Shown piece after piece: positions 2,600 to 64,000 of a stretch of 64,000 bases of DNA; position 1 is the first letter of the stretch, and each line of letters starts with the position of its first letter. The notes under the pieces are model-generated. The model did no database searches. It had not been told where the DNA came from and saw only the letters and a program-made list of their open reading frames with translations. Position numbers and translations under genes: made by a program. The stretch is taken from NCBI RefSeq assembly GCF_018320785.1, contig NC_054877.1, positions 33,688,151 to 33,752,150 on the forward strand, given 5' to 3'. This DNA comes from Cheilinus undulatus (lineage: Eukaryota > Chordata > Actinopteri > Labriformes > Labridae).

Positions 2600-2730
2600 C
2601 TCAAATTTTCAGTTTAAACACGCCCACTTTGATTGGCAGTTGATTGATATTGGTCTTAAGTTTTTCCTTTAATGTGATTTGACAGCTGTTGCTCGTTGTC
2701 ATGTTTGCATGTTATTATTCCAATGAGTAA
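2600..2730 (+). repeat. third copy of the sequence flanking the duplicated transporter exons
   Basis: This stretch resembles 5720-5850 and 8735-8840, the segments lying about 300 bp after each copy of the duplicated slc7a7 first exon. Shared words in order are a CCCACTT...GGCAG block, a TTC(C/T)T(C/T)TAA.GTGAT block and a GCTG.C..G...TCATGTTT block. No transporter exon accompanies this copy. It is either the remnant of a third exon block or a dispersed repeat that all three places share. Confidence 0.4.
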
Positions 2731-3479: not shown

Positions 3480-4355
3480 AAACTAATGTTTATTTTTAAC
3501 ACAGTGCTTTATAGCCAAAACAAACCAGCACCAAAGCACCACATCATGCCATATAACACACCTAAACTGCTGCCCCTTGGACACATCAGTGGCAGCAAGT
3601 CACTGGTGAAACTCCCCACCAGACACAGCTGGACCAGGTATTTGATACCAGAATTGAGAGCCCACTTGGGGCCCGTTTCTACACTTCAGTGGTTGGTGGA
3701 AAAAATGATAAAAGCAGTGCTATTTCACCTGAGACCCAGGCCTCCCATTAATTTTACACCACCAACAGAAGATGGCTTTAATGCCTTTGTCTGTGCTCTC
3801 AAACAGAGCCGCTACTCGGCAGTCGAAATGTACAGAACAGCTGATCTCTCAGGAAAACACTCTGCCAGCTGCGGCAGGCCTATTTGCGCATAGGCTTGGG
3901 GCTGTGCTCAGGCAAACAAAGGAAAGAAGGAAGCTGGTTGTGGAGCAGGTACATAGACAGGTGGAAGTACTGAACAGGGACAGTGGGTGAATAGGGAAAG
4001 TGTTGAGGAAAGGAAGCTTATTTTGATGGATCTCTGAAGTGTGGAGGATTATCAAGTCAAATTCTTGTTAGAGGCTACCTATAGCTAATGTCTTACAATC
4101 ACCCGAGAACCTAAAATGCCAGGTGGATGGGGATCAATCATGCCCATTCTGCTAAGAAACAGCAACTCGAGGCGAGGGGGGGGGGGACCAGTCTGTCACA
4201 GGGCAGGCATGGCAGTACCTCAGTGTATTTGTCGTCAAATTCCCTCTGCCTCTAAAACATTCGTACGCATGAGTTGAAGTTTGCTTACAGGCACACACAT
4301 TTAAACTTCGGATCAGATTTTAATAGATCATGCACTTTGTGTGGATTTACTTTGA
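3480..4355. other. non-coding stretch, nothing recognised
   Basis: A 135-codon open frame at 3486-3893 (+) exists, but it shows no domain, signal peptide or splice-linked partner exon. There is a G-homopolymer of about 12 at 4178-4189. No feature is supported. Confidence 0.4.
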
Positions 4356-4589
4356 GGATTTGCACCACCTGACGACTGATGCTCCCACGACCACTGGGTG
4401 GAGTGTGTTTGTAGTATTTACAAATGCAAGACGCTGTGAATGTCGTGTTAACTGATGCCTGACAGTTACACCTACTTTCAACTACGGGGTACAGGAAAGT
4501 GATACAAAGAGGTAAACAGGTGTGCAGGACTGAGAGAGGCACGTACATGAGCAAAAGCTGCAGCTAAACTGGTAGTTGTCACCTTGCCT

Positions 4590-4679
4590 GACTCACCAAG
4601 GTAACAGTGACCTGAGGACAACTCTACATGCTCAGAGGGACAAACACACCTGTTGATTTTCTATTAATAAGCATAGACA
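4590..4679 (+). other. slc7a7: putative non-coding 5' exon A of slc7a7
   Basis: This block begins GACTCACCAAGGTAACAGTG and ends in a good donor (GACA|GTAAGTATT, intron from 4680). It is conserved in the second copy at 7546-7630, far better than the intron that follows. A matching acceptor lies just before the start codon (CACATAAG|GACTGGACC, exon resuming about 4873). I infer a short untranslated exon. The true transcription start is not visible. Confidence 0.45.
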
Positions 4680-4881
4680 GTAAGTATTTTCTCTTCCTGT
4701 TTGGACGCATCAAGGGAGCTTTGCGGGACAAATGTAACTGCTGTTCATTCATCTATGCAGACATAATGCTGACCTTCATTACCGGGTGTTGTTAGCTCTT
4801 TGTTTCTAAGCTCAGCCGTGAGACCTGGAGTTAGTTTGTCTTTTAATTCCTGTTTTATCATCTCCACATAAGGACTGGACC

Positions 4882-5392
4882 ATGGGAGATCTGGGGCAGA
4901 AAATAGGGGCAATTTTCCAAAAGATCTGCCAGAGTGCAAAGGCTGCGTCTGATAATTTAAAAGCACCAAAAAAAGAAGAGAAAGTGCGAATGAAGAGAGA
5001 GCTCTCTCTGATGAATGGAGTCTGCCTCATTGTAGGAAACGTGATCGGCTCTGGGATCTTTGTCACACCTAAGGGCGTCCTCATGCACAGTGGATCTTAT
5101 GGACTGTCGCTGCTGATTTGGGTTTTTGGGGGAATCTTCTCTGTGTTTGGAGCTTTGTGCTACGCTGAGCTGGGCACCACAATCACCAAGTCTGGATCCA
5201 GCTACGCCTACATCTTCGAGTCTTTTGGGAGCCTCTTGGCTTTCCTTTATGTGTGGACATCCATCCTGCTTTTTGGGCTGGCCAGCCAGGCAGTGATTTC
5301 CCTCACATTCGCCAGCTGTTTGGTGGAGGCTTTCTACCCAGCCTGCCATCCATCGTACAATGCTGTTCGACTTATTGCAGCAGCCTGCATCT
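4882..5392 (+). CDS. slc7a7: slc7a7-like alternative first coding exon A
   Basis: This exon encodes residues 1-170 plus one base, ending ATC T|GTAAGA. It starts at the ATG in GGACTGGACCATGG, the same context as exon B. It covers the cytoplasmic N-terminus, the [16 protein letters not shown] and [10 protein letters not shown] blocks of transmembrane segment 1, and segments 2-4. It keeps the conserved extracellular Cys (YPAC, residue 155) that in heteromeric transporters bonds to the 4F2hc heavy chain. It differs from exon B mainly at the far N-terminus and around segments 3-4, where the family-typical RLWTS is replaced by YVWTS and the next turn reads LLFGLASQ. It joins exon 2 (10219) in phase. 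Confidence 0.88.
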
Positions 5393-8300
5393 GTAAGAAA
5401 CATTTACTGTGTTTGAATGAATGTGTGAGATAAGGTTCAGCATGTAGTGGGTTTGTTGACTAAGGGTACTGCAGTGCCATCACTCCAACCTTGGAGAAGA
5501 GAAATATTACTTAAACTTTAAAAATTGACATGCCATCTCTCTTTTCCACCTTTAATGAAGCACTTTGGTCAAAATATGAGTTAAGCTATAAATGCAGACT
5601 AAGGGCTAAGTCAGCTTAATTTACATTTTACTGGTTTATAGGTGCCAAAAAGCACACAGAAAGTAAATGAAGCTGTAACTTTTTCCAATCAGGTGACCTG
5701 AAGGTATTAACTTATTTTTTGGTGTATAATTTTCCACTGACGTGCCCACTTTCACTGGCAGTGAATTGGTCTTGTGATTTTTTTCTTCTAATGTGATTGG
5801 AAAACTGATGCTGGCTGGCATGTTTGTATATCTTTTTTATTCCAATACATTTAAATTTTTGCTTAAGTGAAACAGATCATTTTTCCAAGTCAAAATTACA
5901 GCAGCTGTGATGGAACCCTGTATCCTATAAATGGAAATTATTATGTGTTAGCAGATTTGGTAGGGCCCCCGATGACCCCAGAGAATGGGTCCTCAACAGT
6001 TGTAACTTATTGATAGCATCAAGGCCGGTTGGATCAGTAACATTGGTGCTACCATCCTGGCTACTACTATTAGGTCCTGATGTTGATTATTTAACTGTGC
6101 CACAGTGGAAGCCCTTTCAACCACCTTTTCCACCCATTTTTGAGATGACCATTTTCCACTTTTCATCAGCTATACAGTTTTTGCCATTTTTACCCATTTT
6201 TTAAATTAAACCTACATTTGCTTTGTAATAACCAGTTTTTGCCACTTCCTGCATATCATTACCTCTGTTGACCTATTTTGGCACATTTAACCATTTTAAC
6301 CACTTTTTACACCCATTTTTGCCACTTTGCACCTATTTTTTGCTTCTATTAAATAATTTTTTGCAACTTTAGACACAGTTTTGCCACTTCTAACCCATTT
6401 GTGCAGTATGTAAAACCCCTTTTACAGCCGTTTATGCCTATTTTTTGCCAAATTGAACAAACTTTTGCTACATTTTAACCCACTTTTATCACTTTTTTCC
6501 AAGCGATTTTGCCAGTTTGCCCATTTAATCTATATTTTAACCAATTTTAACTGCATTTCAATATTTGTTACGCTCATTTTTGCCACTTTGAGCCTTTTTT
6601 TTTTTTTGCATCTCAATCAAATTTTGCAACTTTAAACACATTTTCCACTTTTAACCCATTTGTGCATTATTTTAAATCCCAATGTACCACCTGTTAGCCT
6701 ATTTTTGCCATTTTTGTGTGATTATTATTCAGGTAAAAAAAAAAAAAAAAGAAAAAAAAATATATATATATATACATGCTAACAAGCTAAAGCTGTTAGC
6801 ATGGTGCTAACATTTAAGGTGAATTTTAGGGCAGAGTTGAGTGTGGTGTTAAAGCACAACAAATAACCACAATAGCCAATGGGAGCCAGCAGACCAGGTT
6901 GCATAGCCAGCCAGATGTTGCCAAGCTTTCTATTTTTGCTGCTAAACAGAGCCCAAACCAAGAAAGCCCGCTGATGAAATCGACTTTTCTTAATGTTTGC
7001 TTTTCTTCTAAAGTCTCAATAGATCACACAAGTTTCTATGCAATTTCGTGTCTCTGGAGTTTCCACTGTGAAGTTGTTGATACAAACAGCTTGAGTGAGG
7101 CCTCATGGTCTGGCTGAGTCCTGTAGAGTGTAAGGTCAAAAAAATTTAATGTTAAAGATTATTTGAAACTGTCCTTATACAGTCCTCCAAGTTTTGAAAC
7201 TGGTTAGGATTTGAAAGAGTCTACTGTAGTAAGCCCAAGTTTACATTGCAGTTCCTGTTTGAGGACTTATGCCCCCTGAATAATGATACTCCAGCGACCA
7301 CTGGGTGGAGCGTATTTGTTGAGTTGACAAATGCAGGATGCTGTGAATGTCATGTGAAGTGATGACTTTGAAAGCAGTTAGACCTAGTGTCAGAGAAACT
7401 GTGCAGAGCAAGTGATGCAGCTTAGGTAAGCAGGAGACAGAAGAAGAAGGTGTGCAGGGCTGAACAGCATGAACATGAGTTAAAGAAGTTAGGAGCTGCA
7501 GATAAATGAAGTTACTAAACTGTTAGCCGTCGCTTTTCCTGACTCACCAATGTAACAGTGACCTAAGGACGACTCTACATGCTCAGAGGAACAAACACAC
7601 CTGTTGATTTTATTTTAAGGAGCATATAAAGTAAGTTTACTTTTATACTTTAAATCTCGTGTCTTTTTTGACATTAATACTTTAAGTATGCTCTGTTCCT
7701 TTCCAGATGCATCAACAGAAGACATTCTAGCTCTTTGTTTCTTTTAGCTTAGCCTTAAAATCTAGAGTTAGACACTATGTGAAAAGAAGAAAATAAAATC
7801 ATAAGTGATAGGACAACAGTGTGTTTAAATTGTCACATCAGTAGTTTCCCATTTAACTTTGTCCTGTCATCTCCACATAAGGACTGGACCATGAGGGATC
7901 TGAAGCAGACCATAAAGGTCGTTCTTCTGAAGATCTGCCAGAGTGTGAAGGCAACGACTGATACTATAAAAGCACCAAAAAAAGAAGAGAAAGTGCGGAT
8001 GAAGAGAGAGCTCTCTCTGATGAATGGAGTCTGCCTCATTGTAGGAAACGTGATCGGCTCTGGGATCTTTGTCACACCTAAGGGTGTCCTCATGCACAGT
8101 GGATCTTATGGACTGTCGCTGGTGATTTGGGTTTTTGGGGGGATCTTCTCTGTGTTTGGAGCTTTGTGCTACGCTGAGCTTGGGACCACAATCACCAAGT
8201 CTGGAGCCAGCTACGCCTACATCTTTGAGTCTTTTGGAGGCCTCTTGGCCTTCACGCGTCTTTGGACATCCATCCTGCTGATTAGGCCCGCCAGCCAGGC

Positions 8301-11300
8301 GGTGGTTTCTCTGACACTGGCCAACAACTTGGTGGAGGCTTTCTATCCCACCTGCCAGCAGCCGTTTCAAGCTGTACGACTTATTGCAGCAGCCTGCATC
8401 TGTAAGAAACATTTACTGTGTCTGAATGTGTGAGGAGAAGGTTCAGCAAGTGGTGGTCTTATTAATAATGGGTACTGGGGTATTCTAACTCCAAACTTTG
8501 AGAGGTGAAAGATTGATCTAGTAGGATAAACATAAATAAATAATGTATGTAATGCTTGGTAATCTGTCAGCACCTGCCAGCCATTAAAGATGACGTATCA
8601 TCTCCTTTTCCCCCTTTAAACACAGTACCCTGAGGTCTGAATGGCGTGTCTGTACCAGGCTGTTGTCAAAATATAATATGAATCAAGCAACACATGTAAA
8701 CAAAGGACTATAGATTGGCTCATCTCACATTTTTTAGGTTGTTCCAGTGGGTTTTCCCACTTAAACTGGCAGCGAATTGCCATCAATTTTCTTCTAAAGT
8801 GATGGAACAACTGGCACGGCTGTCAAGATTACATGTTTTCTTTCACAGTGAACAGAATAGAACAGATATTCAGAGAGCAAATTGGTCATACAAAAACAAC
8901 AATCTTGCCCAAAAAAACAACAGTGCAGTACTAGAGTGTCAGAGGACTGAAAGAGAGGACTACAGATATAAAATATGACATGTCCATGATGACTGGTCAA
9001 ACCAGGCTGTGGCAGAGTCCGATTAGCTGAGTACGTAAGAGACTGAATGCTGATAATCAGCTGATCACCAGAGCGAAAAGAAAGAATGGAAATAAGAATG
9101 ATATGAAGGGATGGTGATGAATGAATGAGTAGGAAAAAGTCTTAGTGCTTTAAACTTCTGCTGAGCTCCATGAGCACATCTGGGTGAGCGACAGATGTAG
9201 CAGCAACAACGACGTAGTTTAGGTCCGTGTGAGAGAGAAAACTCTAGTGGATTCATTTTTTAACATCCACCCCAAGATAGTTGTGTATGAGACTGTATGC
9301 AGTGGTGGTTCTGTCTTTTAAAAAATCCTGATGTATTTTTGTACGTAAAAGGAGCATAAATGAGCCTTTAGATTTAGATAACAGTTTATGTTTGAGAAAT
9401 TGCACCCGCTGAAGAATAATGCACTAACCACCATTGTTCACAATCCAGAAAAAAATCCTATTTGTTGAGACATGCATCTGTTCTTCATGTCATAAAGAAG
9501 CACATTCTTTTTTTATTGAGTCTTTTTTTTTTTTTTAACTTTTTATTGCTAAGCTAAACAAGCACCCCAAAATGCTCCCTATTCTTCACATAACATAAAT
9601 GTTTATTTCATGACGAGTGTTTGTTTGTGGGAAGATACAGACAGGAAAAACTCTCTTCTATTTATGCTCCACCATAAGGGGCCGATTAGAAGGTCGGGGG
9701 GGGGGGGCTAACTAACAGGAAGTCCTGTTAGCTAGTCCATGTGTATTAAATTTACTGTCTCCCAGTGTCAAAACTGAAAGTCTTCTTTAAGTTTATAACA
9801 TTTAAAATTATTGGAAAGTATAATGTCACTGCAGGTGTCCTTCATAGAGGCTGACATGTTGTTTTTAGAGTTAAAAACTCTTTAAAAAGGAGTATTTTTT
9901 TCTTCCAATAAAGTGGTGGACTGATGATATAGTACAAGCATATATTTAGCTATCCATTTGTCCCATCCTAGTTTTAAACTCAGTAACCCTGTGCGTGTGA
10001 GACTGCATTCAGCTATAGTTAGACAGCGCTGTATAAATACCATCATGGTTTGCAGTCTGGCTTTGTGCTGTGAGGAACGTTGTGAGCAGACGTGGTATTT
10101 AGGTTAGAGATCAGACATACTAAGGGTCTTTCTTTACCTCCAGCTTCATACGACTCAGCTACAACACAATCTCCGTCACGCAGATAAGTGTTTTTTATGA
10201 TTCCTCTGGTTTGTCCAGGCATGCTCATCTTCATCAACTGTGCCTACGTGAAGTGGGGGACCTTGGTCACTGACATTTTCACTTACACCAAGCTCATGGC
10301 CCTCGTCCTCATCATTATTGTAGGAATCCTGAAAGCATCGACAGGTACAATAACATACAGTATTAATGCATCAGAGGAAACATAAACTTATGTATGTAGG
10401 CTGCATGTTATTAAAGTTTTGACTGTCTGTGTGCAGGAGAATCAAAAAGCTTCGAGAGTCCATTTGAAGGCTCCTCAACGGATCCAGGAGCCATTGCTCT
10501 GGCTCTTTACTCAGCTCTGTTCTCCTACTCTGGCTGGGATACTCTCAACTTTGTGACTGAGGAGATTCAGAATCCTGAAAGGTAATACACACAAACACAC
10601 AACAAATACAGTGATTTCAGTACCGAAATATGGTTTAAAGCTGGATAAAATCAGGTCTAAATGCCTTAGACCTAACTTCAACCATTTATAGTTGGCAAAT
10701 GGTGAGTGGACTTGAGCTTGGATAGCAATCATCTAACTTTGAAAAGCAGATGGATTGGCCAGATTCAATGTCGGCCATAAGGCAGATCTATCTTTCAAAG
10801 CTCCAATCTGAGACAACTGTGCCAGGTCTGACCTGACCAATCAGTGTCATTTGAGGAGAACAAGGCAATAGCTATGGATGGGTTTAGTTGTACTGGAAGA
10901 TGGTAGCAATGGCTGCTGCCAGTGAAGTGATAAAATAGTGACAGTTTTGTCAAAACTGGACCACATTTCTTTATTATATAAAGAGCAAAGAACCACACGG
11001 AAAGCTTTTCCTTTGCTGAAAAGATGTTTTCATGCTTCCCCCTAACTTGCTTCGGCATGATTTTATGATAGCTACAGGCAGGGATTAGTTGTTGCTGGTA
11101 GAAAATGACAGTGGGGCGTATCCATCTGCTTTGCAAGGTTATTTGCTAGCATGTTTACTGTAGAAATTTATGTTACATCAGTTTGCTAGCATGTTTATTG
11201 AATACATTTTTTAAATAAATTTGCTAAGATAATATGAGATATTCCTTTATTAGTCCCACAAGGGGAAATTCCAAGCATGTTTACTATATAAATTTACACT

Positions 11301-14300
11301 TCATCAGTTTGCTAACATTTTTTCCGTATAAATTCTTGCTTCATCAGTTTGCTCGCATGTCTATCAGGATATGCTGCATAAGTTTGCTAGCATGTTTACT
11401 ATATAGATTTAAGCTTCATCAGTTTGCTAGCATGACTGTTTAGATTTACGCATTACCAGTTTGCTAGTATGTTATGTTGTTTGCTATCATGTTAATGTAT
11501 CAGTTTATGCTCCATCAGTTCGCTTGCATTTTAGCAGTATGAATCTATCCCCAATACCAGTTTTTTAGCATCTTTACTTTATAATTTTGTGCTTCATCAG
11601 TTTGCTTGTATGTTAGCAGTATAATGTTTATGCTCCATAGGCCTTACATTTTACAAGCATGTTAGCACTCCCTACCAGTTTGCTTTAAATATGCATTGTG
11701 CTTTAAAACTATTTATGTTATGTTAGCCATTAATTTGTTGACATGTACCAGTTTGCTAGCCTGCTATCTACATAAACATATGCTCCGTATTAGTTTACTG
11801 GCATGCATTTTATGCTATGTATCCATCTGCTTTCCTGTTAGCTACATAATTGTATATTCCATGCCTCTTTGCAGGGATGCTAGCTATATTGTGAGGTGAT
11901 GATTTGCTCCTTGTGTTTAAAACTTTTTTTCTGCTGCCCCTAAGTGGTCAGATGAATGTTTTTGGAAATATATTACAAATATTTATTTGACATGTTGTTT
12001 TACAGGGGTAATTTTAACAACAGCCTTGGCCAGTGTATTTATTGTATTTGTTTTGAAATGGAAGAATTGCATGAGTGAAAAGACACAAGCTGTAAAGGTT
12101 GGAAAGTCAGTAAATAAATTTGTAAATGTCCTGTAGTGTTTACTGCAGATGTCGGGTGAATCAGTAACCATTTTGTGTTGCTCATGTTTTTGCAGGAATC
12201 TTCCTCTGGCCATCGCTATCTCCATGCCCATAGTGACCATCATCTACCTGCTGACTAATGTGGCGTATTATGTTGTTTTGGACATGCCTTCTCTGCTGGC
12301 CAGTGATGCCGTCGCTGTGGTAAGGCACACCTAAGACGATAATTCATCCTGCTGCTAATTATAATCCTGCTCTGCTCAGAAACAGACGACCTCGAAGGTT
12401 TTGCTCTCTGACATCAGTAGAATTTGGTTTCATTATGTCACTGAAAGGTTAAAAATACATGGTCTGAGCTACTGAAAGGTTCTTCTAAAAATGTCTTCAC
12501 ACACACCAGAGGGTTGTTAATAATGCTGACTGATCTGACTTCCCAGACTTTTGGAAATGCAGTCCTAGGACCATTCAAGTGGATCATCCCTATCTCAGTG
12601 GCCATGTCTTGCTATGGAGGGCTCAATGCTTCCATCATTGCTGCATCTAGGTAATCAGGGAAAACTGAAAAAATAGCTGACATAAGCTGCAATCATATGA
12701 GTCTGTTGTCTTTAACTTTTTGTTGTTGTTTACCATGCAGGCTGTTTTTTGTTGGGGCCAGAGAGGGCCACCTTCCAGACAGTCTGAGTCTAATCCACCT
12801 GGAGCGATTCACACCCATACCTGCACTGCTGTTCAATGTTAGCACTATTTCACTTAACTCTTAATATGAATCATATTCCCTTAAGTAATACACCTCCTGC
12901 AACTAAAAATAGTCTCATGAATGCTTCTGAATAATGAGTGCTTCATTGTTGTGTTGCAGGGGCTGATGGGTCTGATCTTCCTGTGTGTGGAGGACGTGTT
13001 TCAGCTCATCAATTATTTCAGCTTCAGTTATTGGCTCTATGTGGGTCTGTCTGTGGCCGGTCTCATCTACCTGCGCTTCACCCAGCCTGACAGACACAGG
13101 CCTGTGAAGGTGCTGCTTGCTTAAATGCTCAGTAAAGGCATACATAATACTGCAGTTTCTATGGGGATGGCATGATATTTTATAGTATAAAGGGATATTT
13201 TTCCTTTTATAATTTCAAAAGTCTACTTTTTGCTGCGGCATCTTCCGTTAAATTTAGACTAGAGATTGGGGGGGTGCAAAATGCATTTAAAAAAACAAAA
13301 AACATTTTTAAATATTTGAAATTGTATATTTTACCCATTCGTTTACAAATACACAGCAAAAACTGGAGTGTTGAATTCTCAGTGTTAAACATTTTAGTGT
13401 TTATTTTAACACTCAAAGTGTTATTTTAACTCCATTTACTGTAAATGGTCTTCAGTGTTGGAGTTATTTGACAGTGTTGATCAATCAGTGTTAGTCCAAC
13501 ACTGGAGAGAGTCAGTTGATCCAAGCCCCACCTACTGCAATTTCAAAGCTGGGGGGCAGGGTTTTCCCATCATGCCTTTGTGCAGGGTGTTTAACTGTGT
13601 TTCAGATTTTTTAGATGCATTTAGATGTTTAGCTGTGTTTAGATGTTGCTTGTTGTACAAGAATCACTGCTGGGATTCACTTGCACATGTTTCTTGAAAT
13701 ATCTTTAGTTCTTAAGTTTTTGATGTTAAATGCTTTTGCACCATGAGTGTAGTTGTCTTCCAGGTTGGTCAAGTCTTGGCTGTGGTGACGGCTCACATAC
13801 ATCTGTGGAAAGAGTGTCTTTCAACTGAGGACAAGTGCTGACTCTGAATCAGTTTTATTTCTCCATGATTGCTATGACCTACCTCATAATGTGAGGAGGC
13901 AATCAATGAGAGCACATGTATCTGATATTCTACACACAATTTGTCAAACTTACAAGTCTTGTTTCTATTAATTATTGGGTTTGTGGAAGAGGGGCATTGA
14001 AAAGCCACAGCATTTTACACCCAGTGAAATTAATTGTAATACACTCCTTAGTGTTAACACACCAGTCAAGTGTAGTCGGGTAGAGTTAGAGTTGTTTAAC
14101 ACTGACACCAGTGTAGAGTACTATCAACACTACTCAGTGTTCACCAGTGTAAATGTTTAACACCATACAGTGTTGGAGTAACACTTGTTCAGTGTAAAAA
14201 AAAATGTAACACTATGAAAAGTGTTAAATTAACACTCAAAAGAGTGGACACATATAAACACTTTTCTAGTGTTAGATTTAACACTCTCAGTGTTAAATCT

Positions 14301-15593
14301 AACACTGGCGATTTTGCTGTGTATATTCATGAAATAAATTCAATTTAAGATAAATTTGTAAGAAAGCCATAGTCATAAGCTGAGATTTATGCTGAAAAAA
14401 GATATGTTTTAAAAATCCTTAAAAAGTTAGTTGCACACAACTGTTCTTGAACGTGTACAGCTATGTGGGACTACGGTTGAATCAGCTCCAGCGACAGTGG
14501 TGACCCCAGTCACTGACACTGTTGTTCTGGGGATCGTGGGCTGAAAAGTTTGGGAACCTCTGCTTCAAAGAAGGTGCCTCCAATGTGATGTAAACTTCAC
14601 ATTCTCTATATAATACTGTCACAAACCAATTCAGTGTAATAATTAATAAATATATAACACTGATTTTGTAAAAAATGACAAAACACATTTTTGTGCCACA
14701 ATTCATTTATTTGTACATTCAGCAGGCCATCTGCTGCCTTTGAGTATCATAATGAAAAACTGTCACTCCATCCAAAACCCTTTAATTTAGTCAGACACTT
14801 GTTATACATTTAACTAAATGGTTATAAAGTTTATCCCAGGGATGGAGGCTCTGCTCAAAAACTGCACATACATGCTTGCTGACAGCGCCTGTCAATGCTC
14901 ATTTGTAATTTGGTAATCATTAAAAAATGGAAAAAACCCTTTATGGACCACCATATGGTGAGCAGTGAGTGGTTTCACAGACAGTTACTGTCTGAAGCAA
15001 CATTATAACAAAAGATGTTAACACAGTTGAGTGTGTTTTTTAATAATCTTATCAGATTTCTGTCTCTTTCTCTCTCCATAGTTGACGTTGTTCTTCCCCT
15101 TCATCTACTGTCTGTGCAGCCTGTTCTTAGTCATCGTCCCTCTGTACGCAGACACCATCAATTCCCTCATAGGAATAGGCATCGCGCTCTCAGGGTTGCC
15201 GGTCTATTATGTGGCGATTTACCTACCAGAGGAGAGGAGGCCCAAATTCATGCGCAGGCTTAACAGTAAGTTTTGGGTTTGAGGCCATGGAAGCCCAGGG
15301 CAGCCTTCAATTATTTTTTGTGCAAAGTTATTTTTCTCCACATTATCATAATCATAAGATTGGCTAAGCAAACCCAGCATGTAGTCATTCATTATAGCAG
15401 TTTTTCACTATTGTTTTTTCCTCTTAAATTATGACCCCTTTTTCCTGTTGATCCCTATAACCTCTCCTCTTTCTCCTGTTCCTCTCCTCCTCCTGCAGCC
15501 AATGTCACCAGATTCACACAGAAGCTCCTCTACTGCTGCCTGACTGAATTTGACACTGACACAGAGACACAAGCAGGTGGTAAAACACAGTGA
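4882..15593 (+). CDS. slc7a7: y+L-type amino-acid transporter (SLC7A7/y+LAT1-like), alternative first exons
   Basis: This is the light subunit of a heteromeric exchanger. With 4F2hc (SLC3A2), the family exchanges cationic amino acids for neutral ones plus Na+ at the plasma membrane. Coding exons: 4882-5392 (1A) or 7891-8401 (1B), then 10219-10344, 10437-10581, 12196-12319, 12547-12650, 12741-12837, 12960-13109, 15082-15265 and 15499-15593. All phases close, giving 511 aa with either first exon, the same as human y+LAT1. Diagnostic blocks are [67 protein letters not shown] and [17 protein letters not shown]. The C-tail is short and acidic/Thr-rich. Assignment to SLC7A7 rather than SLC7A6 rests on remembered similarity. 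A candidate AATAAA lies at 16853. Confidence 0.9.
5851..7265. repeat. spacer between duplicated exon blocks with a degenerate minisatellite
   Basis: Positions about 6110-6720 are a degenerate tandem array built on a T-rich unit containing TTTTGCCACTTTTAACCCATT, with many variants. It is followed by an A-run and a short (TA)n microsatellite at 6734-6773. There is no coding signal. The array sits between the two duplicated exon blocks and so may mark where the duplication was extended or repaired. Confidence 0.65.
7546..7630 (+). other. slc7a7: putative non-coding 5' exon B of slc7a7
   Basis: This is the counterpart of 4590-4679. It contains CTCTACATGCTCAGAGG and CACACCTGTTGATTTT and ends in TAAA|GTAAGTTTA. 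The acceptor before the coding part is the conserved CACATAAG|GACTGGACC. It implies that copy B has its own transcription start, by inference only. Confidence 0.42.
7891..8401 (+). CDS. slc7a7: slc7a7-like alternative first coding exon B
   Basis: The same length as exon A (511 nt) and the same ending ATC T|GTAAGA, so it is interchangeable with it. It starts ATGAGGGATCTG in the same GACTGGACC context. The middle part ([16 protein letters not shown] onward) is nearly identical to A. Segment 3-4 keeps the family-typical FTRLWTS followed by LIRPASQAV, and the heavy-chain Cys is kept in YPTC (residue 155). B is therefore the more canonical copy. It is also nearer to exon 2, so a transcript starting at A must skip it. 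Confidence 0.9.
8841..10218. other. intron 1 of slc7a7, no further feature
   Basis: A T-rich run at 9509-9543 and a G-run at 9698-9707 are present. No exon-like block with matching splice sites was found before the acceptor at 10218. Confidence 0.5.
10740..11138. mobile_element. MITE with terminal inverted repeat AAAGCAGATGGAT
   Basis: The left end carries AAAGCAGATGGAT (10743-10755). The right end carries its inverse ATCCATCTGCTTTGCAAG (11120-11137). The same terminal word, CTTGCAAAGCAGATGGAT, recurs at 21089 and 51552, so this is a dispersed non-autonomous family. Superfamily not determined. Confidence 0.6.
11140..11890 (+). repeat. degenerate tandem repeat (CATCAGTTTGCTAGCATG unit)
   Basis: At least twelve imperfect copies of a 40-55 bp unit built around CATCAGTTTGCTAGCATGTTTA, followed by an AT-rich spacer, lie in the slc7a7 intron between 10582 and 12195. 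The copies are strongly diverged, so this is an old minisatellite. Confidence 0.75.
13350..14327. mobile_element. foldback DNA element rich in AGTGTTA/TAACACT
   Basis: The ends are inverted: ACACAGCAAAAACTGGAGTG at 13351-13370 and its counterpart ATTTTGCTGTGTAT at 14312-14325. Both arms (about 200-300 bp) consist of alternating AGTGTTAA and TTAACACT words, so the element can form long hairpins. There is no transposase. It lies in the intron before the 15082 exon and is apparently a non-autonomous DNA transposon. Confidence 0.7.
14328..15081. other. rest of slc7a7 intron, nothing recognised
   Basis: AT-rich sequence without coding or repeat structure that I could recognise, ending in the polypyrimidine tract and acceptor CTCCATAG at 15081. 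Confidence 0.5.
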
Positions 15594-18599: not shown

Positions 18600-19490
18600 C
18601 ACATTATGTTCTGTGAAGTCATGTTGTGTTCAGTCACTTGGTTAATTCATGTTTGGATAATTCACACTGTGTCACGTTATCTTACGTTGTGTTACGGTGC
18701 ATTGTGTTATGTTACGTTGTGTTACGTTGTGTTACGTTATGTTGTTATATTTCGTTGTGTGACGTTATGTTGTGTGACGCTACGTTGTGTGACGTTACGT
18801 TGTGTGACGCTACGTTGTGTGACGCTACGTTGTGTGACGCTACGTTGTGTGACGTTACGTTGTGTGGGTTAGGTTGTGTGACATTGCGTTGTGTTACGTT
18901 AGGTTGTGTTACGTTAGGTTGTGTTACGTTAGGTTGTGTTACGTTACGTTGTGTTACGTTACATTGTGTTACGTTATGTTGTGTTACATTATGTTGTGTT
19001 ACATTACGTTGTGTGACATTGCGTTGTGTTACGTTAGGTTGTGTTACGTTAGGTTGTGTTCTGTTAGGTTGTGTTACGTTAGGTTGTGTTGTGTTACGTT
19101 GTGTTGCATTACGTTGTGTTACATTTGTTAAGTCATGTTTCCTTGAGTCACATGGGGTTAAGTCATGTTTGGTTAAGTCATGCTGTGTTAACTGACATTG
19201 TGTTTAGTCACAGTGGGTTACGTCATGTTGTGTGACATCATTTTGTGTAACGTCATATTGTGGTACATCATATTGTGTTAAGTGAGGTTGTGTTACAGGA
19301 AGTTGTGTTAAGTAACATTAGGTTACATCACGTCGTGCTACGTCACGCCGTGTTATGTCACGCTGTGCTATGTCAAGCTGTGCTATGTCACACTGTGCTA
19401 TGTCATACTGTGCTATGTCACGCTGTGCTGCATCATGTCGTGTTACGTTATGTTGTGTTACATTACGTTGTGTTAGGTTATATTATTTAA
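18600..19490 (+). repeat. 15-bp minisatellite (GTTGTGTTACGTTAG)
   Basis: About 890 bp of tandem repeats. In the core (18760-19110) the period is 15 bp, with unit variants GTTGTGTTACGTTAG, GTTGTGTGACGCTAC and GTTGTGTTACATTAC. The flanks are more degenerate, and the 3' part shifts to TGTGCTATGTCAC-like units. Because the period is divisible by three and the unit has no stop in the + frames, several long spurious open frames of Leu-Cys-Tyr/Asp-Val-Thr repeats arise. These are not genes. Confidence 0.92.
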
Positions 19491-37000: not shown

Positions 37001-40000
37001 TGGATAATTCCTTCTCTAAATTTCTTCGCTTGCTGTCCAGGCTGGTAATGGTGGATTTGCTCTTGGAAACCAGGGCAATAGCATTCTTCTCCTCTGTTTC
37101 CAGAGACTGTAACTTCCCTTTACATCGGTAAAGCTCCTCCCTGTTGTCAACCAGCTTGACATCCAACTCCTACAGCAAAGCATGGATCAAAACAGGGTTA
37201 AGCACAAAGAATGTTATATAAATCCCATTTCTAGTAGTTTGTCTCCCAAAAGAAAACAATATTCTACAGTATAAAATGAGTTGCTCCAAGTGAGTGTTGT
37301 AATTGGATGAGAGGAATTCCATGACTGCTGAAACAGAGTACAGATTTAATGAGAATTTACGTTATCAGTATCACACTATCTCAGCCAGGGGATTCAAAAC
37401 CTTTGAGTTAGAACTTTTGAAGAAAGAGTTCTTCTAATTGTCCAGCTGGTTCATCAAAGTCAGGAAAAAGACTCTCACAAGTGGCATGATAAACTAAACA
37501 CAAATAAATGTACATCAAACTAAAGAACTGGTCTGTGGTATTGATGGACATTAAACAAAGAAGCAAGAGTGCAGGGGACTTTTATGTTGGTTGGATATTG
37601 CACTTTTAAATAAGACCAGATAAATAGGAAAAAAGTCATCTGTCACTTTTAGATCAGAGCTTCCAAAATATGTCCATGGCAACTCATGGAGTCTTTTGAG
37701 ATAAAATGTTGCCATGGTTGAGCTCTTCAACTAAATTTTACGTTACTTTCAGCAGGAATTTTGATGGTGAAAAATCAGGACATTTGTAAGTACTCAGATT
37801 TGAAGGCCATCTAGTTCATAGTTTGATCCCCCCTTCTTGTTGTTGTTTGAAGGTTTCAGAACTATTATATTCCAGTCCTCTTTATCAGGCAGAAGCAGAT
37901 ATTTGCAATTGTGTTTTTAGTTTTTTTTTTAGCTGTTTTTAGTTTTTAGCTTATAGTTTTTAGCAAAAACAATACACAAGATGAGATGTGGTAGAGTCTT
38001 GAGTAGTAATAGTCTACAACTGGCGTGTACAACAGAGGTCTCTACCTACTGCTGCCACACAAAATCCTTCTTTAGCTCTACCTTTGTTGCCTTCTCCTCC
38101 TCCTTGAGGAACTGTTCCATCTGTGCAGCTCGCTCCTCCTCATTAAGGGCAGTTTGAGTCACGACTTTGAGCCTCTCTTCCAGTGCCACATTGTAGTTCT
38201 CGGCTTTTTTCAGTCTACAGCAAAACACAAAATACACAGAGAGAACTTGTGTTAAAAATAACAACTAAAGAGACAATTCAGTAAATGACCATTTTTCACT
38301 TACTTGTCATTGTTTTCCTTGATGTCTTTCTTCAGTTTGGATATTTGTGACTTCACAGACTTCACATTAGATGTTGCTCTTTCCAGTGTGACACTGCAAC
38401 TCAGCAGCTGCAACACACAAAAAGTTACATTTTTTACAACGTAAAGTCAGTTTACAGGTACGTTTTTAGAAGATCAGAACAATCTTTTTGCACATGTTTA
38501 GGGGAAACCCACAGCTGAAGATGTTTTTTGAATGAGGTAATGGCAATTTTGAAGTCTTTCATGTTACTTTGAGAAGCTGACCTCATCCTGTAGCCTCCTA
38601 TAGTTTATCTCCTGGTCCTTCAAATCTTGTCTTAGCTTTCCAGCCTGTTGGTTGGTGATGGTTATCTTCCTCTTGGTTTCCTTGTTGTTGTTCTCCTCAG
38701 TGTCCAGCAGATGCTTCCATCTTATAATGGTTGAAGTCTTCTCCCTGATACCCTGGTTGGCTTGGGCAAGTTTCTGAATAGATAAAGGAGAATTGTGGGA
38801 ACATGAAACAAATGGTACTAAATAGTAAAATTTGTTGGTTGGTTCACAATTTGAAATTCTCAGGTTTGAGTCCATGTGTATTTCATCAGTAGAAGTGTGA
38901 AGTCACAGTCATACCAGTGCAAACTGCTGCATCTCATCATCTCGTTGCTTCATCTGCTTGATGGTGTTTTCCCACTGGTGGATGAGCTGCTTTGTCTCCA
39001 GGTGGGCTTGCTGCAAATTCTCTGTGGTTTTGTCTAAGGCGACCTGTTCAGAAAGCACAGACAACACAACCCCAAATCTTATAAGATCCAAACAATTAGT
39101 GTCTTTAGTCCCTCTACATATACAGAGAGTTTGAAGAAAAGGTGATGTAACACAGTAGCAAACAAACCACAGTCCAAACTTTTTTGGAACTTCTTTTGGG
39201 AGCTTCATTAATAAATTAAGAATTTCATCAAAATTGTGACCCGCTATTTTAAAAAGTAGAATATCATGTGAGAGTTTACTTCAAAAAGTTAAACTTCCAT
39301 ATCCCAGATTCATTTTATACAAAGTGAATAATTTCAACACATTTTTTAAACCTTGATGTTTATGGCTTACAGCTCACAAAAATACACTATCTCAAAATCA
39401 TGAAAAGTCCAATTTGCAATGGTTTCCTGAGGCTTCATTCTTTCACTCTGGTTCAGTACACACAACTGCAATCATGGAGAAGACTGCTCACTTGACAAAT
39501 GTCTAAAAGACAATCATCGTCATCCTTCACAAGGAGGGTAAGCCACAGAAGGCCATTGCTGAAAGGGCAGGCTATTCTCCAAGTTCTTTATCAAAGTATA
39601 TTCATAGAAAGTTGACTGTAAAGGAAAAGCGCTGGGGCATCCTCAGATGTGGATGAACACTCCCTGTCGCCAGGGCTAAGGGTTAGCCCTGAAGAAGACC
39701 GGTTTGGTCGAAACATGTTGGCTTTTTAATGATTTGGCCATTACATTTTTTTGTTTAGAGTGCCTGGTTCTCTCCTCCTTTTTGGACCCATAGAGAATCT
39801 CTTGAAAAATGCCAAAAGGACGATAAGAGACACCAGACTCAACAATATAGACAAGCTAAAGGCTGCTATCAAATCAATCTTCATGACACCCCAGCAGTGT
39901 CACGGACTGATCGGTTCGATGCAATGCTGCATAGATGCATTTATTTATGTAAAAGGAGCTTCAGACAATTACTAAGTGCATAAATTAGTATCATTTCCAG

Positions 40001-46018: not shown

Positions 46019-46556
46019 CTATCTTAATACATTTGTGTTTAAACAAACAGCGTTATTCTTTAAAAAATTACAATCAATTTTTTATACTGACTTGTCGCAC
46101 AAATGTATCATAAAACAAAAAACAAAATCAAGGAAAGCACACAAGAGTATTAAATTCAATAATAAAAGAACAACATCCCCTTGTGAACCGTCGTGTTTAG
46201 ATTACAATTCAAAAGTGTGTCTATCTACCTGCTTCTGAGTGGAGCCCAGCCACATCAAAGAACCATGTGGACCATCGTGGTGACTCCTCTCTATTTGGCT
46301 TAAACACACGCAAAAAGCCCAATACTTAAGATAAAAGTTCCAATCCACACAAGTTGACCAACAAAGAGATATGCCTTTTATATATGTAAATACGCACAAA
46401 CATATATAAAGTCTCTGCTGTGTAAAATATTTCAGTCCTGAGGGTTGAAAAGGCAACATAGTTCTCAGCTCAGTGCGGTCCCCTTGTGCTCCTTTCACAG
46501 TGCTCCCTGTTCAGTAGAAACCTCACATTGATGTTCCTTCAGAGAGAGAGCCACCA

Positions 46557-54302
<7,746 letters not shown>

Positions 54303-54652
54303 GTTTGTCTTTGCCTGACTGTCTTCCCTCCCATCCAGCTAGCTAACAACGAATATTTACCAGAACGGCCAAACACATTTCCGGTGAAGCATCGCTATAA
54401 AAATAATAGTGTAAATTAAGTTGGTAATCTATGATTACATATCCTAAACTTTCAAGCTGTAATGTTTCTGTCTCATTATATCCATTTGTCGTAATTTGAA
54501 GGCCTCACTTCGTCAATCGTTGAAATATTTTATTTTTAACTTGTAATACTGACAAGTTCGCGCTTTTATTTTGAAGTGAAACGTCGGAAGTGAGAAGATA
54601 AATCCGGAAATGAGCATCACCTCTACATCAGACCGAAAAGACGTTGCTCCGG
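54303..54652. promoter_or_regulatory. bidirectional promoter interval dcun1d1/setd9
   Basis: The dcun1d1 start codon (54302, minus) and the setd9 start codon (54653, plus) are 350 bp apart and divergent. No TATA box is obvious near either. An ACATTTCCGGTGAAG block (54376) and AATCCGGAAATGAG (54601) contain ETS-type CCGGAA/TTCCGG cores, usual in TATA-less housekeeping promoters. Confidence 0.55.
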
Positions 54653-55513
54653 ATGTTAAGAAGTGCCTTAAAGAGAATTCATGAGAAATGGAAATCGTAC
54701 AGACACAGGTTTGTGCCTTGGGTTGTATTGAACTTGTCAAAAAATGAGAAAACTCTGCGGCAGGTGACGGAACGCTCGAAAGACAAACTGGTCCCAGATG
54801 AGGAGGTTTCACAGACTCTCCTGAAGCTCTTCGGGGTCCTGCTCAGGAGTCAATGGGCAACTCAAGAACAGCTCCGGGCTGCTCAAGCTCACTTTTTAAG
54901 GCATGTAACGCGTCAGGAGGACCGAGGGGAAAGTTTCCCTGTGTGTGGGGTCGAGGCCATGTTACACTGTTTGGGCTTCTGCGTTGACCGGAAGCCAAGC
55001 ACTTTGCCCTCTGCAGGAACTGGGGTATTTGTCACCAAAGGATTTGTGCCCAAAGGAACCACAGTCGCCATGTACCCTGGCACGGTCTATCAAGCAAATG
55101 AGCCAATTCTCCTCCAGTCCATCAGAAACCCATTTGTATTCAGGTGTATAGATGGTATTTTGATTGATGGGAATGACAAAGGCATATCAAAAATGGTCTT
55201 CAAGTCTTGCAGTGGCAGGGATAGAATAGGGCCTTTCCCAGTGAGTGACACCAGCTGGCTGACACCTAGTCCACAAAACCCGCTTGCTGTTGGTCAGTAT
55301 GTCAACAACTGCTCTAACAATTGGCCTGCTAATGTGTGCTACCAGGAGTATGATGTACCTGACACATTTCCCTTGGAGCTCCGGCAGTATCTTCCAAATG
55401 TCAACTACAGCCAGGAATCACAAAGGCCTCTACGCTGTGTTGTCCTGGTGTCACTCAGAGACATTACAGCAGGGGAGGAGCTCTTCTCCAACTACTACAC
55501 TGTTGTGCATTAG
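54653..55513 (+). CDS. setd9: SET domain-containing protein 9, uninterrupted ORF
   Basis: A 286-aa protein read from the ATG at 54653 (a longer frame begins only at a TTG). It matches SETD9 over its whole length: a basic N-terminus with RHRFVPWVVLNLSKN, then the SET region with GTGVFVTKGFVPKGTTVAMY, FRCIDGILIDGNDKGISK, AVGQYVNNCSNNWPANVCYQ and the C-terminal GEELFSNYY with the expected catalytic Tyr. The substrate is not established for this family. There is no intron, although the human gene is multi-exon. An AATAAA at 55621 is a plausible poly(A) signal. No frameshift or stop breaks it, so it looks functional. Confidence 0.9.
   Translation: MLRSALKRIHEKWKSYRHRFVPWVVLNLSKNEKTLRQVTERSKDKLVPDEEVSQTLLKLFGVLLRSQWATQEQLRAAQAHFLRHVTRQEDRGESFPVCGVEAMLHCLGFCVDRKPSTLPSAGTGVFVTKGFVPKGTTVAMYPGTVYQANEPILLQSIRNPFVFRCIDGILIDGNDKGISKMVFKSCSGRDRIGPFPVSDTSWLTPSPQNPLAVGQYVNNCSNNWPANVCYQEYDVPDTFPLELRQYLPNVNYSQESQRPLRCVVLVSLRDITAGEELFSNYYTVVH

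Positions 55514-57145: not shown

Positions 57146-64000
<6,855 letters not shown>

Follow-up and report, generated by a model that had tools for sequence, protein, structure and literature searches.

Genes in which one of several variable first exons is joined to a constant set of downstream exons are a recognised type, with UGT1, GCNT2 and the protocadherins described as examples (PMC1885805, PMC3325998). Each first exon of UGT1 is given its own promoter (PMC3325998), the N-terminal domain of the UGT proteins is stated to hold the acceptor-binding pocket, and gene conversion is described as frequent among the protocadherin variable exons and as not predominant in UGT1 (PMC1885805). The words "transporter", "solute carrier" and "SLC" do not occur in the main text of PMC1885805. 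Here, a comparable arrangement is described in an SLC7A6/7-like (y+LAT-type) amino-acid transporter gene of the fish Cheilinus undulatus, located in a 64-kb stretch of the forward strand of contig NC_054877.1 (positions 33,688,151 to 33,752,150). This whole stretch is referred to as the window, and all coordinates are given in its own numbering. Two tandem first coding exons, A and B, lie upstream of one set of shared exons. This layout is familiar from other genes but unexpected in this protein family.

Like UGT1, the gene has tandem homologous first coding exons with the same donor and phase leading into one constant set within the window. Unlike the UGT1, GCNT2 and protocadherin clusters, it has two units only and encodes a membrane amino-acid transporter, while the converted look of the middle of its exon is a further difference from UGT1. 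Within the SLC7 family, the SLC7A2 forms CAT-2A and CAT-2B are described as differing in 42 residues and in substrate affinity (PMC12839458). The present gene is like SLC7A2 in that one SLC7 gene is predicted to give two transporters. In CAT-2A/CAT-2B the swap lies later in the protein, with R369 and S381 of CAT-2A among the residues named (PMC12839458), whereas here it involves the first coding exon with transmembrane segment 3 (TM3) and perhaps a promoter of its own. No description of an SLC7 gene with duplicated first coding exons appears in the titles and abstract openings of the matches listed, in a literature collection with few subscription journals. Human SLC7A7 reportedly has two promoters, and its alternatives change only the 5′ leader. 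The present gene would resemble it as a y+LAT gene with promoter choice, and would differ from it in that the first 170 residues of the protein would change.

Exon A (4873..5392, plus strand) has its ATG at 4882 and exon B (7882..8401, plus strand) at 7891, and each contains an intact 511-nucleotide (nt) open reading frame (ORF), at 4882-5392 and 7891-8401. In both, a 9-nt leader separates the shared acceptor from the ATG. The acceptor of A reads cacataag/GACTGGACC, the slash marking the splice point, and the last 13 bases of the B acceptor are identical to those of A. Both exons end in CATCT/gtaagaaacatttactgtgt, in phase 1. Either can be joined without a stop to eight downstream exons on the plus strand (10219-15593), namely shared exons 2 (10219..10344), 3 (10437..10581), 4 (12196..12319), 5 (12547..12650), 6 (12741..12837), 7 (12960..13109) and 8 (15082..15265) and the coding part of the last exon (15499..15593), whose stop codon ends at 15593, giving a product of 511 amino acids each way. 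When the full 511-residue B-headed protein was searched against the window with tblastn, exon 1 was matched twice and all other exons once, and no other set of downstream exons was found in the 64 kb. The first-pass annotation had described two interchangeable 511-nt exons of the same splice phase in an otherwise single-copy gene, with the motifs FTRLWTS...LIRPASQ in one and FLYVWTS...LLFGLASQ in the other; the duplicated exons are confirmed as described, both ORFs are intact and join in frame, and the quoted motifs are correct, the first belonging to B and the second to A. No third copy of the exon was found in the window by tblastn with both exon proteins or by nhmmer with a profile of the unit. 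A candidate at 3-168 (nhmmer expectation value (E) 0.036, 3.8 bits against a shuffle maximum of 2.5) is near noise and was rejected.

Joining the donor of A to the acceptor of B creates an immediate in-frame TGA, and one protein would therefore hold either A or B, never both. This TGA is also what could be expected of an exon A that serves mainly as a regulatory or poison form, being spliced to B to give a truncated product or nonsense-mediated decay, and the position of the B acceptor between A and exon 2, with its last 13 bases as in the acceptor of A, would suit such a role. A poison exon would, however, have no need of the constraint-like features of the TM3 of A described below, and this explanation is considered very unlikely. 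It is more improbable still that A heads a separate gene with downstream exons elsewhere, or that the arrangement is a misassembly. The window starts 4.9 kb before A, which leaves some room for either, but A and B follow each other on one strand, A first, and no second downstream set was found in the 64 kb. The two units are only 73.5% identical where they align, which is more difference than two alleles or a collapsed copy would show.

The duplication extends beyond the coding exons. Units A and B align over 1264 columns (E = 0.0), far beyond chance, and include an upstream, putatively promoter-containing block (4351..4470 in unit A, matching 7258..7382 in unit B with 78% identity, both on the plus strand) and a putative 5′ non-coding exon, also on the plus strand (4564..4679 and 7515..7630; 3′ ends at 4679 and 7630, 5′ ends unmapped). 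The 115-nt core of this exon (4564-4678 against 7515-7629) is 86% identical with zero indels. Its donors are ACA/GTAAGT in unit A and AAA/GTAAGT in unit B, the former scoring 6.9 on a donor matrix, in the top 2% of the GT sites of the window. The earlier proposal that each copy has its own putative 5′ exon with a good donor is supported. Identity between the units is 63% in the leader stretch and 57% in the intron ahead of the coding exon (44% in its shuffles), and in intron 1 the first 116 nt are 76% identical, the part after them 60% and a distal tail 70%. Over the leader, introns and tail, 17 indels were counted against 212 substitutions. By these identities, the 5′ exon and the upstream block are conserved above the intervening intron (86% and 78% against 57%). 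Such duplicated upstream sequences may parallel the promoters of the individual UGT1 first exons. With an upstream block and a 5′ exon present in each unit, the switch between A and B is likely to be made by choice of promoter.

Both putative 5′ exons also contain a conserved upstream ATG, at 4628 and 7579, with a shared peptide start. With the 5′ ends as assumed, the frame opened by this ATG overlaps the start codon of A by 71 nt and ends 10 nt before that of B. If the leader reaches that far, the two transcripts could be under different translation control.

The best reading of the locus, and on the sequence comparisons a probable one, is two alternative first coding exons of the UGT1 kind, placed before one constant set. 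The pair would have arisen by partial tandem duplication of the 5′ end of an SLC7A6/7-like gene, in which the upstream block, the non-coding exon and the coding exon were copied together with the beginning of intron 1. Transcription would start at one of the two unit-specific upstream regions, the 5′ exon of that unit would be spliced to its own coding exon, as the conserved splice signals suggest, and the chosen coding exon would then be spliced to 10219, a step for which phase and frame agree. The predicted products would have nearly identical TM1-TM2, probably kept alike by gene conversion, and all residues past 170 in common, the differences falling in the cytoplasmic N-terminus and TM3. 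As the TM3 helix lines the side-chain pocket, A and B are expected to differ in side-chain selectivity and probably in place of expression.

The nearest solved structures to the gene product are human y+LAT1 (E 1.1e-224) and y+LAT2 (E 4.3e-223), with whole-chain scores of about 750 bits for y+LAT1 and 745 for y+LAT2; the xCT consensus scores 561 bits and LAT1 485. In the aligned human rows, the B-headed protein is 68% identical to y+LAT1 and 65% to y+LAT2. For the exon only, B scores 214.5 bits and A 196.6 bits against the human y+LAT1 chain 9i1z_B. Both exons carry N53 in the TM1 stretch GNxIGSG, as do human y+LAT1 and y+LAT2, the residue being Thr in LAT1 and in the xCT consensus, and this Asn appears to be y+LAT-defining. 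The Glu of the TM3 "E-P" pair present in both human y+LATs may likewise be defining, as judged from these two sequences; the pair is replaced by R132-P133 in B and by G132-L133 in A. The earlier label of y+LAT-type is thus borne out by overall similarity and N53 but not by this Glu, and with Arg (B) or Gly (A) at position 132, unlike human y+LAT1 and y+LAT2, y+L transport activity is not to be assumed. Zebrafish is listed with the loci slc7a7, slc7a6 and, under SLC7A6, si:dkeyp-120h9.1 in PMC8478756. Among IMG/VR relatives, 12 stretches fitted a pattern and none was confirmed.

By alignment to the family, exon A is the copy that departs from the conserved residues. The first-pass annotation had placed the differences in membrane segments 3-4 and at the extreme N-terminus; the N-terminus and TM3 stand, while what was called segments 3-4 proves to be TM3 with the TM3-TM4 loop. 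With LAT1 numbered as in chain 6jmq_A, positions 131, 132, 133 and 139 align with LAT1 I140, R141, P142 and V148, and are Ile, Arg, Pro and Val in B and Phe, Gly, Leu and Ile in A. LAT1 I140 and V148 are described, from a homology model and docking, as belonging to the hydrophobic residues by which the substrate side chain is bound (PMC6337383), and V148 is also named in PMC5983779. In PMC8399266, substrate side chains are said to point mainly toward TM3, TM6, TM8 and TM10. The TM3 face of A would be bulkier, with Phe and Ile in place of Ile and Val, and two Arg are missing from it. C155, in the TM3-TM4 loop, is kept in both A and B and aligns with LAT1 C164; a disulfide from this loop Cys to the heavy chain is described in PMC5983779, and both exons carry this loop Cys of a heteromeric-transporter light chain. 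An AlphaFold2 model of exon A (39 sequences) has a mean predicted local distance difference test (pLDDT) value of 79, a predicted template modelling (pTM) score of only 0.42, and TM3 as one unbroken helix (117-151).

Divergence between the exons is uneven. The number of synonymous substitutions per synonymous site (dS) between A and B reaches 0.53 over codons 1-27 and 0.51 over codons 119-170 but is 0.11 over codons 28-118, and this middle part differs from the rest with Fisher p = 0.0005 on rounded synonymous counts. By this measure the copies are old, at a dS of about 0.51 outside the homogenised middle. In codons 28-118, which hold TM1-TM2, 263 of 273 bases (96%) agree between the copies. 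This leaves amino-acid differences only at the N-terminus (codons 2-26), in codons 122-160 (TM3 and the TM3-TM4 loop) and at three scattered sites (78, 106 and 117). The homogenised tract common to the two exons runs over 4958..5240 on the plus strand in exon A, where 273 of its 283 bases are shared with B. None of 5000 permutations gave an identical run as long as the longest one in the exon, 86 nt. Gene conversion is probably the simplest account of the TM1-TM2 likeness, and selection on the DNA itself is a possible cause.

The ratio of nonsynonymous to synonymous change (dN/dS, omega), suggested in the first-pass annotation as a test of exon A, was obtained for the A-B pair. It is 0.485 for the whole exon (twice the log-likelihood difference (2dlnL) 7.0 against omega = 1) and 0.16 for the middle (2dlnL 7.6). 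As pairwise omega is under one, no positive selection on TM3 is claimed.

An explanation that bears directly on these values is that exon A is a non-functional leftover, only B being expressed, with conversion from B keeping the middle of A fresh. It is thought unlikely: despite a dS of about 0.51, A has neither stop nor frameshift, it retains C155 and both splice sites, and its 5′ exon and upstream block are conserved above the intron. A neutral simulation of the 237 unconverted coding bases, evolved over half of dS, left 1198 of 5000 runs stop-free, as exon A is. The probability of no frameshift was 0.09, 0.02 or 0.003 at 0.05, 0.08 or 0.12 indels per substitution, with 80% of indels taken as frameshifts and 0.02 being the value at the flank indel rate. 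Codons 119-148 have a mean hydropathy of 1.85 in A, compared with 1.06 in B. Two starting sequences and four base compositions made up eight settings, and in each of them 0-3 of 1000 neutral runs reached the value of A; for codons 119-170 the corresponding figure is 0-8 of 1000. Scored on a profile of 80 bacterial relatives, A was equalled by none of 1000 neutral runs started from B and by 11 of 1000 from a reconstructed ancestor. The L122 state of A occurs in 61 of these 80 relatives, Y123 in 59, both together in 49, and the F143 state in 45.

A number of results weigh against a functional exon A, and several of them would be expected of a leftover. F131, G132 and L133 of A each occur in none of the 80 bacterial relatives, so that its bacterial score derives mainly from L122, Y123 and F143. 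On a four-sequence profile (human y+LAT1, y+LAT2, LAT1 and the xCT consensus), A is reached by 35 of 1000 neutral runs started from B but by 691 of 1000 started from the ancestor, and on a mixed profile by 4 and 67 of 1000, respectively. Exon A lacks P133, P158 and a basic residue (R/K) at 123, all three of them present in each of the five other sequences of the alignment. From codon 28 onward, the human y+LAT residue at 19 differing positions matches B in 9 cases, A in 4 and neither in 6. Omega in the N-terminal part (0.79, 2dlnL 0.16) does not differ from 1, that of the C-terminal part (0.455, 2dlnL 3.9) is only marginally below 1, and a pairwise omega could be about the same for two moderately constrained copies as for one constrained and one free copy. 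The hydropathy measure was picked after seeing the sequence, and the coding-exon donor TCT/GTAAGA is mediocre in both copies, with both acceptors ending in AAG. Within codons 119-170, the 16 differing residues match human y+LAT in B in 6 cases, in A in 4 and in neither in 6, so decay is not plainly one-sided. Taken together, it is suggestive, not conclusive, that A is more like a working membrane helix outside the family pattern than a product of random decay. Acquisition of its TM3 from another gene is not favoured, the exon end and the start of intron 1 being in register with B.

A more specific form of the alternative-exon reading is put forward tentatively and is less probable than not. 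It sees the locus as exchanging one wall of the pocket through promoter selection: the backbone-binding TM1-TM2 part would be held nearly identical by conversion and TM3 freed, the two proteins would take two substrate classes, and the pair would be the remnant of a longer array. The start of TM3 in A would have moved to the "Phe-Leu-Tyr-x-Trp" state that many bacterial relatives have, and its pocket face (F131/G132/L133) to states absent from the compared relatives.

Pieces of the unit that lie outside A and B touch on the last point. The distal intron block, or tail, of unit A (5729..5838, plus strand) matches that of unit B (8739..8843, plus strand; 70%) and a stretch further upstream, which is an orphan tail block ahead of unit A (2618..2726, plus strand; nhmmer E 7.7e-11, 32.6 bits). 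An orphan head block lies downstream of unit B (9382..9436, plus strand; E 6e-4, 9.7 bits). Eight dinucleotide-shuffled versions of the window scored 2.5 bits at most. These pieces hint at an array that once had more units, or else at a dispersed repeat; with regard to the latter, no other copies of the tested units were found in the 64 kb.

Elsewhere in the window, irregular repeats with a core like CATCAGTTTGCTAGCATG lie at 11138-11884, in the intron that separates shared exon 3 from shared exon 4, and a 15-bp tandem repeat of about 30 and 21 copies in two blocks, with long open frames on both strands, occupies 18668-19475. Fragments of neighbouring genes span 38909-39280, 46523-47541 and 54614-55513. 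They comprise, on the minus strand, a CCDC39-like fragment whose 24.6 bits fall short of the Pfam cut-off (27) and two pieces of cullin-binding domain, and, on the plus strand, a SET-domain ORF. At 60031-63126, also on the plus strand, there are two matches each to SNORD2 and SNORA81, small nucleolar RNAs of vertebrate type; these we take to be intron-hosted RNAs of EIF4A2, and the doubled set may sit in that gene.

Should both exons prove to be in use, the variable-first-exon genes, among them UGT1, GCNT2 and the protocadherins, would gain an SLC7 light chain as a member. The pair would also offer a natural contrast in TM3 and the N-terminus with which to test how TM3 sets side-chain selectivity, and the annotation and knock-down of slc7a6/7-like genes in fish may be seeing two proteins.

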